Shown here: piece by piece, positions 10,331 through 50,883 of the stretch
Layout: every line of letters begins with the position of its first letter
Numbering within the stretch: position 1 is the first letter of the stretch
Notes under the pieces: generated by a model
The model's input: the letters and a program-made list of their open reading frames with translations, nothing else
The model's database searches: none
Told to the model about the DNA's origin: nothing
Assembly (NCBI GenBank): GCA_017552965.1
Contig: JAFZNQ010000009.1
Span: 1-64,000 of the forward strand
Length of the DNA stretch: 64,000 bases
From: Abditibacteriota bacterium
Lineage (GTDB): Bacteria > Armatimonadota > UBA5829
Direction of reading: 5' to 3'
Translations under genes and position numbers: made by a program

Positions 10331-11935
10331 ATGAAATCAGATAATAGCAAAAAACTTCTCGTAGCAGGAGTGATACTGTGTCTGGTTCTCAGCGCTGTCA
10401 TTGCACACAAGGTCCGCCCCTTATACGGCATGATGGGCGGCAACAGCATCGATCTGTCTCTTGCGGTGGATATCAAGAACGCCAGAGAAGAGATCAAGAT
10501 GATCGAAGAACAGCTGAAGACAGCCGCAGATGACACAGACAAGATCAAAGCCCTGACAGACAAGAAGTCCGAGCTGGAACAGAAGATCATCGACAACACC
10601 AAGCGTCAGGAAGAGATGAACAGTCTCCTGCTGCAGATGCCCGGTCAGTTCATGTTCGCTATGTTTTCCGGCTTCAAGGACGTGATCTCCGGCGCTCTGT
10701 GGGTGAGAGCAGACGAGTTTTTCCACAGCGGCAATTATGAGCAGATCATCCCGCTGGTGAGACTGGTCACATGGCTCGACCCTCATAATATCGACGTGTT
10801 CAACACGGGCGCCTGGCATATGGACTACAACTTCACCGACTCCTCCGAAAAGTCGGACAAGAGAAACATAGCTCTGTCCGTTCAGCTTCTCAAGGAAGGC
10901 ATCGCCAAGAACCCCGACAGGTGGGACCTGTATTTCGAGCTTGGCTGGGTGCACTACCAGAAAAAGCTGGAGGATTATGAGAATGCTGCCAAATACATGA
11001 AGATGGCCACCCAGCATGACGGATACGACTCCAACACCGGTAAAAGGATCCCCCGGCCTGAGTTCGTCGAAAGAATGCTGGCCCACGCTTATGAGCAGTG
11101 CGGCGATATAGACAGCGCTATCAGAGAATGGCAGGTAGCCTATGCCCGCTCGGAGACCCTCCTGAAAAACAAGGACACCTCTATGGACTGGTCAGCCGGT
11201 ACCGAGAGAGAGCTGATGGTCATCAACAAGAACCTCTCTCTGATGTATCTGCGCAAGGCCTGGCGTTACGGTGATATGACTGCCTACAAAAAAGGCATCG
11301 AGCTGGCCAAAAAGACCGACCATGCCGCCTGGGCAGTGGAAGGCGCCGAGAAGGACTACAATGCCAGACTGGCATCGGGAGCTCCCTTCGGTGATGCGTC
11401 CAAGCCCGTGGATGCCGGCTTTACGGCCACTTACAAAAAGGTGAAGCCCGGTGTTCTCAATTTCAGCGGTACCATCAATATGATTCCGGTAGCTGAATAC
11501 AAGGGGCTCTCCTCCGAGTGCTTTACCAAATTTTATGCCGACGCCTCTGCAAAGGGCGAACAGTGGAGAGATACCTGCCGCGTGTTCTGGAGATTGTCCG
11601 ACGAATACTACGTGGACAATCTGGCCGAAGGCTCCTGGGAAAGAAATCCCAATGAGACCCTTATGTGGGACAGCCTCTACGTCAAGAACGGCAAGTTCTC
11701 CGAGACGGTGGACTTTTCACGCAAGGAAGACAAGGCTTTTTATCCCTTTGCAGCCCAGAAGTACAAGCTGGTCTTTTGGTTCGTGCCCCGCGGCAGCTGC
11801 TGCCCCGAATTCGTTCAGGACAGGATAGGCTGGAACGGCGAAGCTCTGACCGGCAGCAATTTGAAGCGTAATTTTGTGGGAGACAAAAACGCGGTCGTCA
11901 TAGAATACGACCTTGACAAGAGCGATATATTCTGA
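10331..11935 (+). CDS. Membrane-anchored coiled-coil/TPR protein of the ABC operon
   Basis: A 534-residue protein with one N-terminal membrane helix (about residues 8-26), a coiled coil (about 48-95) rich in Glu/Lys, then helical TPR-like repeats (WDLYFELGWVHYQ, ENAAKYMKMATQ, FVERMLAHAYEQCGDI) to about residue 350, and a beta-rich C-terminal domain of unknown type. It starts six bases after the permease gene and is probably its partner, perhaps as an extracytoplasmic scaffold. The segment ALWVRADEFFHSGNYEQIIP is distinctive and could serve as a search handle for relatives. The ffs promoter overlaps its last codons. Confidence 0.7.
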   Translation: MKSDNSKKLLVAGVILCLVLSAVIAHKVRPLYGMMGGNSIDLSLAVDIKNAREEIKMIEEQLKTAADDTDKIKALTDKKSELEQKIIDNTKRQEEMNSLLLQMPGQFMFAMFSGFKDVISGALWVRADEFFHSGNYEQIIPLVRLVTWLDPHNIDVFNTGAWHMDYNFTDSSEKSDKRNIALSVQLLKEGIAKNPDRWDLYFELGWVHYQKKLEDYENAAKYMKMATQHDGYDSNTGKRIPRPEFVERMLAHAYEQCGDIDSAIREWQVAYARSETLLKNKDTSMDWSAGTERELMVINKNLSLMYLRKAWRYGDMTAYKKGIELAKKTDHAAWAVEGAEKDYNARLASGAPFGDASKPVDAGFTATYKKVKPGVLNFSGTINMIPVAEYKGLSSECFTKFYADASAKGEQWRDTCRVFWRLSDEYYVDNLAEGSWERNPNETLMWDSLYVKNGKFSETVDFSRKEDKAFYPFAAQKYKLVFWFVPRGSCCPEFVQDRIGWNGEALTGSNLKRNFVGDKNAVVIEYDLDKSDIF

Positions 11936-11941
11936 TAAAAT
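11913..11941 (+). promoter_or_regulatory. Promoter of the SRP RNA gene
   Basis: A consensus TTGACA (11913-11918), 17-base spacer and TGATAAAAT extended -10 (TAAAAT at 11936-11941). It overlaps the stop codon of the upstream TPR gene and predicts a transcript start at about 11948, just before the RNA's terminal helix. Confidence 0.85.
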
Positions 11942-11954
11942 AGAAGAGTATTAG

Positions 11955-12083
11955 AGTTTGTGGCTAATATCTGACGGAATCCTACGGTGGTCTGATTTGC
12001 GAACCTCGTCAGGACAGAGATGGAGCAGCGATAAGCAAAAAACGCATGCGATAGGAAGCTCCGTCAGATATTAGCCACAAACT
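11955..12083 (+). ncRNA. ffs: Signal recognition particle RNA, small bacterial (4.5S) type
   Basis: This RNA binds Ffh in the particle that brings membrane and secretory proteins to the Sec machinery. The ends form a perfect 24-bp helix (11955-11978 with 12060-12083). Inside, TCCTA/TAGGA and TTTGC/GCAAA pair and lead to the conserved apical domain: GCGAACC, then GTCAGG (12008-12013), stem ACA, GNRA tetraloop GAGA (12017-12020), TGG, AGCAGC (12024-12029) and GATAAGC. That order matches the helix-8 consensus. The tetraloop is GAGA instead of the commoner GGAA. There is no Alu domain. A consensus promoter sits just upstream and hflX begins ten bases after the helix. Confidence 0.9.
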
Positions 12084-12093
12084 ATTTTGATAT

Positions 12094-13341
12094 ATGGTTA
12101 TAAATAACGCCGTGCTGGCTGTCAGCGATCTGGCTACGGATTACGACTCCGAGCACAACTCACTGGAGATGCGTCTCCTCTGCGAAAGCGCGGGGGTCAC
12201 AGTGCTGGACGAGTACCATTTCAAGCGCAGGAATCCCGATCCCGAGTCATACATGGGCTCGGGCAATGCGGAGTCTCTCAAGTGGTTATGCGCAGAGCTG
12301 GGCGCCGATCTGGTCATTTTTTCCGAGGATCTCTCTCCCAATCAGATACGCTATCTGGAAAACGTCACGGACACCAGAGTGGTGGACAGGACCCAGCTGA
12401 TACTGGATATATTTGCCTTGCGCGCTCATTCCAATGAGGGCAAGCTGCAGGTGGAGCTGGCTCAGCTGCAGTATCTGCTGCCCAGACTCACCGGCAAGGG
12501 CGTAGAGATGTCCCGGATCAGCGGCGGAGCCGGCGTCGCCGCCAGAGGTCCCGGTGAGACCAAGCTGGAGACTGACAGACGGCGTATCAGGCAGAGGATA
12601 GGGGCCCTGAAAAAGAAGATAGCCGATATCTCCGACAAGCGTTCGGTCTCATCCCAGCAGCGGAAGGGGCTTCACATCCCGTCAGCCTGTCTGGTGGGCT
12701 ACACCAGCGCCGGCAAGTCCACTCTGATCAATCTGCTGTCCGGCTCTCTTGTCCTCACAGACCAAATGCTGTTTTCCACTCTGGACAACACCTGCAGAAG
12801 GGCTTCTGTTCCCGGCGGCTCGGATTTTCTCATCACCGATACGGTGGGATTTATTTCCCGGCTCCCATACAGTGTCATAGCAGCCTTCAGGGCTACCATC
12901 AGCGAAGCTCTGGACTGTGATTTTCTGATCCACGTGGCTGACGCCTCCGACAGAGCCTTTTCCCATCATATCCAATCAGTCCGGGATATACTTGCCGACA
13001 TGGGAGCAGGGGACAAGCCTGTGATCACAGTGTTCAACAAGTGGGATCTGGTGCAGGATAAGGACTTCGTCCTCAGGCTGCGGGACCGTACTCCGGATTC
13101 TGTAGTCATATCCGCAGAGACCGGCTACGGGCTGGATGAGCTGTATCTTCGGATCACAGACACCATCAACGCACTGTTTGTGCCGGTCCGCGTGCTCATA
13201 CCCTACGAATGCGGCAAGATGCTGTCGCTGCTCCACAGCAAGGGTCTTGTGTCCAGAGAAGAGCATCTGGATTACGGGACTTATGCGGAGGCCCGGCTGC
13301 CCAGGTCGGTGGCCACTGTATTTCAGGATTATCAGGTGTAA
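12094..13341 (+). CDS. hflX: Ribosome-associated GTPase HflX
   Basis: A 415-residue GTPase that splits stalled or hibernating 70S ribosomes. The N-terminal domain carries RRNPDPESYMGSGNAESL, then the HflX linker GKLQVELAQLQYLLPRL and ARGPGETKLETDRRRIR near residues 150-170. G1 is GYTSAGKST, G3 is DTVGF and G4 is NKWD. The ATG gives the normal family N-terminus but has no Shine-Dalgarno sequence and lies ten bases after the SRP RNA helix. No separate promoter is visible, so the gene is probably read through from ffs. It heads a three-gene run with the alpha/beta hydrolase and tatD. Confidence 0.95.
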   Translation: MVINNAVLAVSDLATDYDSEHNSLEMRLLCESAGVTVLDEYHFKRRNPDPESYMGSGNAESLKWLCAELGADLVIFSEDLSPNQIRYLENVTDTRVVDRTQLILDIFALRAHSNEGKLQVELAQLQYLLPRLTGKGVEMSRISGGAGVAARGPGETKLETDRRRIRQRIGALKKKIADISDKRSVSSQQRKGLHIPSACLVGYTSAGKSTLINLLSGSLVLTDQMLFSTLDNTCRRASVPGGSDFLITDTVGFISRLPYSVIAAFRATISEALDCDFLIHVADASDRAFSHHIQSVRDILADMGAGDKPVITVFNKWDLVQDKDFVLRLRDRTPDSVVISAETGYGLDELYLRITDTINALFVPVRVLIPYECGKMLSLLHSKGLVSREEHLDYGTYAEARLPRSVATVFQDYQV

Positions 13342-49968: not shown

Positions 49969-50883
49969 TTGAAAAACATATTATTATTTGCGCTGGTTTG
50001 TACGCTGTTTCTTTCCACGGGCTGCTTTGCCGCGGAGAAAGAGACACCCATGAACAATGTCCAGGCTGGCATCATAGGCGTAGTCGAAGGAGTCACCGAG
50101 TATCTGCCGGTCAGCTCCACGGGACACATCATGCTGACTCAGCGGCTGCTCGGTATAGACATGGAGGGCCAGCAACGGGAAAAAGCTGCGGACGCCTACG
50201 CCGTGTGCATCCAGCTGGGCGCTATCATCGCTGTTCTGGGTCTCTATCCCGGCAGGTTCAAAAGCATCCTGCTGGGCATCATGGGCAAGGACAAGGCAGG
50301 CCGCAGACTGCTCATGAACCTGCTTATCGCCATCCTGCCGGCGGCCGTGGCAGGTCTAATATTTCACAATCTCATCCAAAAATACCTGTTCGGCCTGTGG
50401 CCCATTGTGATAGCCTGGTTTGCCGGAGGCTTGCTGATGCTCATCATCAGTCCCCGCACTTCTCCCGACGTAGTCACAGGCAAGGAGCTTGACGAGATGG
50501 ACCCCATATCCGCACTCTGGATAGGCGTCATTCAATGCATAGCCATGTGGCCCGGCGTAAGCCGCAGCTTCAGCACCATCATAGGCGGCATATTTACGGG
50601 CTACAGTGTCAAAGCCAGTGTGGAATTCAGCTTTTTGCTGGGTGTGATCACTCTCGGAGCCGCCACACTGTACGAAGGGCACAAATACATCGGCGACGTG
50701 TTTGACATATACGGCTGGCTCCCTCCGGTGCTGGGCTGCGCCATAGCTTTTGTATCGGCGGTCATATCCATCAAATGGCTGGTAAACTATCTGAACAATC
50801 ACGGCATGCAGCTTTTTGGCTGGTACAGAATAGGCATAGCCTTCCTGTCTGTGTGTCTGATGATTTTCGGCGTAATGAAATAA
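49969..50883 (+). CDS. uppP: Undecaprenyl-diphosphate phosphatase UppP (BacA)
   Basis: A polytopic enzyme that recycles the C55 lipid carrier by dephosphorylating undecaprenyl diphosphate. The catalytic regions GVVEGVTEYLPVSSTGHIML and PGVSRSFSTI are intact and about eight membrane segments follow. The TTG at 49969, eight bases after a G-rich stretch, gives 304 residues and adds a signal-peptide-like segment (ILLFALVCTLFLSTGCFA) before the usual N-terminus. An ATG at 50050 gives a conventional 277-residue UppP. The first start fits the promoter distance better, but either is possible. Two SGNH genes follow. Confidence 0.92.
   Translation: MKNILLFALVCTLFLSTGCFAAEKETPMNNVQAGIIGVVEGVTEYLPVSSTGHIMLTQRLLGIDMEGQQREKAADAYAVCIQLGAIIAVLGLYPGRFKSILLGIMGKDKAGRRLLMNLLIAILPAAVAGLIFHNLIQKYLFGLWPIVIAWFAGGLLMLIISPRTSPDVVTGKELDEMDPISALWIGVIQCIAMWPGVSRSFSTIIGGIFTGYSVKASVEFSFLLGVITLGAATLYEGHKYIGDVFDIYGWLPPVLGCAIAFVSAVISIKWLVNYLNNHGMQLFGWYRIGIAFLSVCLMIFGVMK

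Follow-up and report, generated by a model that had tools for sequence, protein, structure and literature searches.

Positions 11955 to 12083 of the forward strand of the window (the whole 64,000-nucleotide stretch of DNA analyzed here) very probably hold the only small bacterial SRP RNA gene (ffs) of this Abditibacteriota genome, with its own promoter and a product that forms a rod-shaped hairpin about 130 nt long; we place the probability of this reading at roughly 0.96. The small SRP RNA is a universal component of the apparatus by which membrane proteins are directed to the membrane. The ffs described here is a known kind of gene, and a real one, with an unusually diverged sequence. At the level of sequence analysis, we consider its family membership, single copy, ancestral position and structure to be established, together with the presence of Ffh and FtsY, and synteny combined with a clade-specific model built without the window settles its orthology with the ffs of relatives. 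An essential RNA that scores so close to the standard detection threshold could be overlooked by an annotation pipeline, and its identification would fill an annotation gap. The extent of the gene, 129 nt, is that spanned by the outermost bases of its closing helix. The features of the region are as follows.

10331 to 11935, + strand: upstream gene of 534 aa, TPR-like by eye; a homologue precedes ffs in another genus and in another family
11913 to 11941, + strand: sigma-70-type promoter, from a consensus scan
11955 to 12083, + strand: small SRP RNA gene (ffs), from RF00169 and R2 matches and conserved gene order
11955 to 11978, + strand: 5' arm of the perfect 24-bp closing helix, exact reverse complement of the 3' arm
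11980 to 11984, + strand: UCCUA of the lower SRP rod, pairing with UAGGA at 12052-12056 (pairing check and Rfam alignment)
11996 to 12000, + strand: UUUGC of the stem below the asymmetric loop, pairing with GCAAA at 12035-12039 (pairing check and model alignment)
12008 to 12029, + strand: apical domain GUCAGG-ACA-GAGA-UGG-AGCAGC, with invariant symmetric-loop halves and a changed cap
12060 to 12083, + strand: 3' arm of the closing helix, exact reverse complement of the 5' arm
12094 to 13341, + strand: hflX (TIGR03156, 403 bits), with its start codon 10 nt past the helix

An earlier, sequence-only reading of this DNA had proposed an SRP RNA gene at this position and suggested a search with Infernal. 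That search matched RF00169 to positions 11972-12069 at 40.5 bits against a gathering score of 40 (E = 3.2e-7, genome-wide search), and this small-SRP model was the best of the SRP clan for the element. Given that the RF00169 score was marginal, we built a second model, R2, from the SRP RNAs of 14 relatives of the phylum with the window left out. R2 matched positions 11968-12066 at 51.6 bits (E = 4.7e-12, window search), and the next-best match in the window reached 14.7 bits. The 65.9 bits that model R1 gave for the window were set aside as evidence, since the window is part of that model. The proposed identity is thus borne out by the RF00169 score, the relatives-only model and the synteny described below. 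No second ffs and no further RF00169 match was found in the genome (97% complete, in 138 contigs), which also answers the earlier reading's concern that another clear ffs might lie elsewhere; the gene is single-copy in a genome that has both Ffh and FtsY. As a separate observation, an imperfect 21-nt inverted repeat at 50252-50381 overlaps a 14.7-bit minus-strand match to the relatives' SRP model, probably by chance.

The element shares with RF00169, the family of E. coli 4.5S RNA, its length class, its single rod and its partners Ffh and FtsY, as well as the GUCAGG/AGCAGC symmetric loop, the GAAC/UAA asymmetric loop and a GNRA cap. It differs from that family in scoring just 0.5 bit over the cut-off, in its cap and in its uninterrupted closing helix. 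RF00169 scored above the cut-off in 55 of 60 relatives. With SRP RNAs from its own order and phylum (G003-G060), the window's ffs shares the upstream gene order and the family structure; their scores, however, are 44-76 bits, and other members of its own family score 64-76 bits, about 24-36 bits higher than the 40.5 seen here, which is the lowest among the family members over the cut-off. Across 15 sequences, the shared SRP structure showed 78 double changes, with 90.9% of cells paired compared with 36-42% when the alignment was slid, and this covariation was well above both controls.

The two ends of the RNA pair into a single rod that lacks an Alu domain. The 24-nt arms are spaced 81 nt apart and are joined by Watson-Crick pairs throughout, just as the sequence-only reading had described. 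They form the sole perfect inverted repeat of at least 18 nt within the window at spacings up to 400, and about 5e-6 such repeats are expected by chance in the whole genome. Folding, which had been suggested as a further check, gave a stable structure for 11953-12085, with a minimum free energy (MFE) of -58.9 kcal/mol and z = -8.4 against dinucleotide shuffles. The unconstrained MFE structure has a different apex and the mid-rod pairing is poor; imposing the SRP fold costs 0.2 kcal/mol relative to the MFE. In 39 other SRP RNAs of the phylum, the enclosing helix runs without interruption for at most 7-14 pairs, usually with G-U among them. The rod of relatives is broken by a UGAU/GGA internal loop at the base of the Rfam domain, whereas the window has a perfect helix instead, and the mid-rod GCAA...GUGUGC sequence of relatives is missing from the window's ffs. 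Stems of this kind can be perfected by template switching during replication, as has been documented (PMC8794818). The perfect helix may have arisen in this way between two imperfect arms, which makes it a candidate case of a stem perfected by that mechanism.

The apical domain consists of GUCAGG (12008-12013), ACA (12014-12016), GAGA (12017-12020), UGG (12021-12023) and AGCAGC (12024-12029). The conserved GUCAGG...AGCAGC core that had been pointed out is therefore present, and this symmetric internal loop, the Ffh site, is the same as in relatives. A GNRA tetraloop on a short stem is also present, given that GAGA fits GNRA and two of the three stem pairs are standard. The cap pairs read A-G, C-G and A-U, so that the A-G mismatch that had been read in the ACA/UGG stem is correct and leaves two pairs in the cap. 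Family members carry UCC-GGAA-GGA or UCC-GGGA-GGA where the window has ACA-GAGA-UGG. GAGA differs from GGGA by one base; the top cap pair has gone from C-G to A-U, with both sides changed, which is compensatory, and the lowest from U-A to A-G. The same A-G at the lowest pair occurs in one relative (G056). The pattern GUCAGG-N3-GAGA-N3-AGCAGC was found in 5 of 291 genomes of the phylum, the window's included, and the other four are confirmed SRP RNAs, three large (RF01854; G259, G261 and G275) and one small (G157). They have GAGA in common with the window, but their stem is fully paired as UCC/GGA or ACC/GGU. A GAGA tetraloop is also recorded for Methanopyrales (PMC2905702). The loop is GNRA-type and unlike the usual GGAA, as had been noted, but the emphasis placed on it does not hold: the GAGA loop is rare, not new, and neither it nor the A-G mismatch is unique. 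Separately, a large SRP RNA (RF01854, with an Alu domain) was seen in three genomes of the phylum (L225, L226 and L227), and the window's family has the small type, so that the phylum mixes the two.

The sequence-only reading had suggested that contacts with Ffh may differ, which was probably misdirected. The conserved loops of SRP RNA bind Ffh (PMC5115805), and these loops are kept here, whereas the GNRA cap contacts FtsY, for which GGAA and two adjacent C-G pairs form the core site (PMC11404819). Tetraloop changes can nevertheless affect the internal loop indirectly (PMC5115805). Because the cap has changed while the Ffh site has not, a functional difference is to be sought first with FtsY. 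Both protein partners are intact in the genome. Ffh scores 606.9 bits (cut-off, 473.2) and its M domain retains the RNA-binding stretch SRRRRIAAGSG; FtsY scores 345.2 bits (cut-off, 260.7). In E. coli FtsY, K399, R402, K405 and K406 make up the basic patch that contacts the tetraloop (PMC11404819). By alignment, with the E. coli numbering following our own count, FtsY of the window genome reads K, R, E and K at these positions. We propose that the promoter ahead of ffs would drive synthesis of an RNA of about 130 nt, folded into a hairpin rod that has the uninterrupted 24-bp helix as its base, and that the internal loops GUCAGG/AGCAGC and, below them, GAAC/UAA would bind the Ffh M domain. The GNRA loop at the tip would first capture the receptor FtsY; activation of the GTPase pair would follow, with delivery to the membrane of the ribosome and the membrane protein emerging from it.

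The promoter has TTGACA at 11913-11918, a 17-nt spacer and TAAAAT at 11936-11941 with TG ahead of it, which agrees with the extended -10 promoter called from the sequence earlier. It matches the consensus at 11 of 12 positions, where 0.5 such sites are expected in the shuffled region, and its -10 element ends 13 nt before the helix. The TG is part of the upstream gene's TGA stop codon. No conserved promoter was found upstream of relatives' ffs. At the other end, no terminator was found on the ffs strand between the helix and hflX, and given that hflX lies 10 nt downstream, the 3' end of ffs may come from processing; where transcription reads through into hflX, RNase III would perhaps cut at the 24-bp duplex, to which it would be suited, and so release the SRP RNA.

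The gene order in the window is ABC ATPase, permease, TPR gene, ffs and hflX. In a genome of the same family but another genus (G003) and in one of the same order but another family (G015), the order is ABC permease, TPR gene, ffs, dnaX and ybaB, with recR next in G003. The upstream gene itself had no NCBIfam match. Given that the order ABC permease-TPR-ffs is common to all three, the left flank is ancestral, which makes the element the orthologous ffs. On the right, the flank is rearranged, with hflX where relatives have dnaX-ybaB-recR, and dnaX of the window genome lies on a different contig.

These observations bear on two other explanations. The element could be a decaying ffs pseudogene, with the working gene in the unassembled part of a genome that is 97% complete in 138 contigs; the lowest RF00169 score among family members over the cut-off and the unusual cap are what such a copy might show. 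We consider this very unlikely, given that the element occupies the ancestral locus behind a near-consensus promoter, keeps the invariant symmetric-loop bases and carries a compensatory change instead of random decay, and a perfect 24-bp helix is hardly expected in a decaying copy. Less credible still, to the point of being almost negligible, is that the element serves hflX as a regulatory leader or hairpin and resembles SRP RNA by chance. The helix does end 10 nt ahead of the hflX start codon with no terminator found between them, but a chance likeness is at odds with the E value of 4.7e-12 from the relatives' SRP RNA model, relatives have ffs after the TPR gene where hflX is not present, and the genome yielded no other ffs.

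What is still unusual about this ffs is its rapid divergence in the lineage of the window genome, together with the finding of no ffs in two genomes of the same genus (G001, 91% complete; G002, 84% complete) using RF00169, R1, the apical pattern with 0 or 2 mismatches and the dnaX neighborhood. These searches gave only chance matches. The 2-mismatch apical matches in these genomes lie inside open frames of 133-751 codons, with no SRP-like fold and no Rfam match. An 18-bit match in G001 was rejected as ffs, being a bare 18-nt core from which the rod is absent. Both genomes also lack homologues of the upstream TPR gene and of hflX, and for this reason the absence is most simply read as a gap in the assembly or as loss of the entire locus; two independent assembly gaps are plausible. 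Ffh is intact in both (L062 in G001; L057 in G002), with 66% and 89% identity, respectively, to that of the window genome. It seems doubtful that the SRP RNA of the genus is in runaway change, with a remodeled cap, a lost mid-rod motif and a perfected helix here, an unrecognizable RNA or none in the two sister genomes, and canonical Ffh and FtsY. If these genomes truly were without a recognizable SRP RNA, the genus would offer a natural setting for testing the limits of RNA divergence under canonical proteins. The G+C content is about 27-38% in G001 (sampled loci; L154 and L062), 54% in the window and 54-61% in G002, and with G001 placed in the same genus despite this gap and its 66% Ffh identity, the genus is unusually wide.
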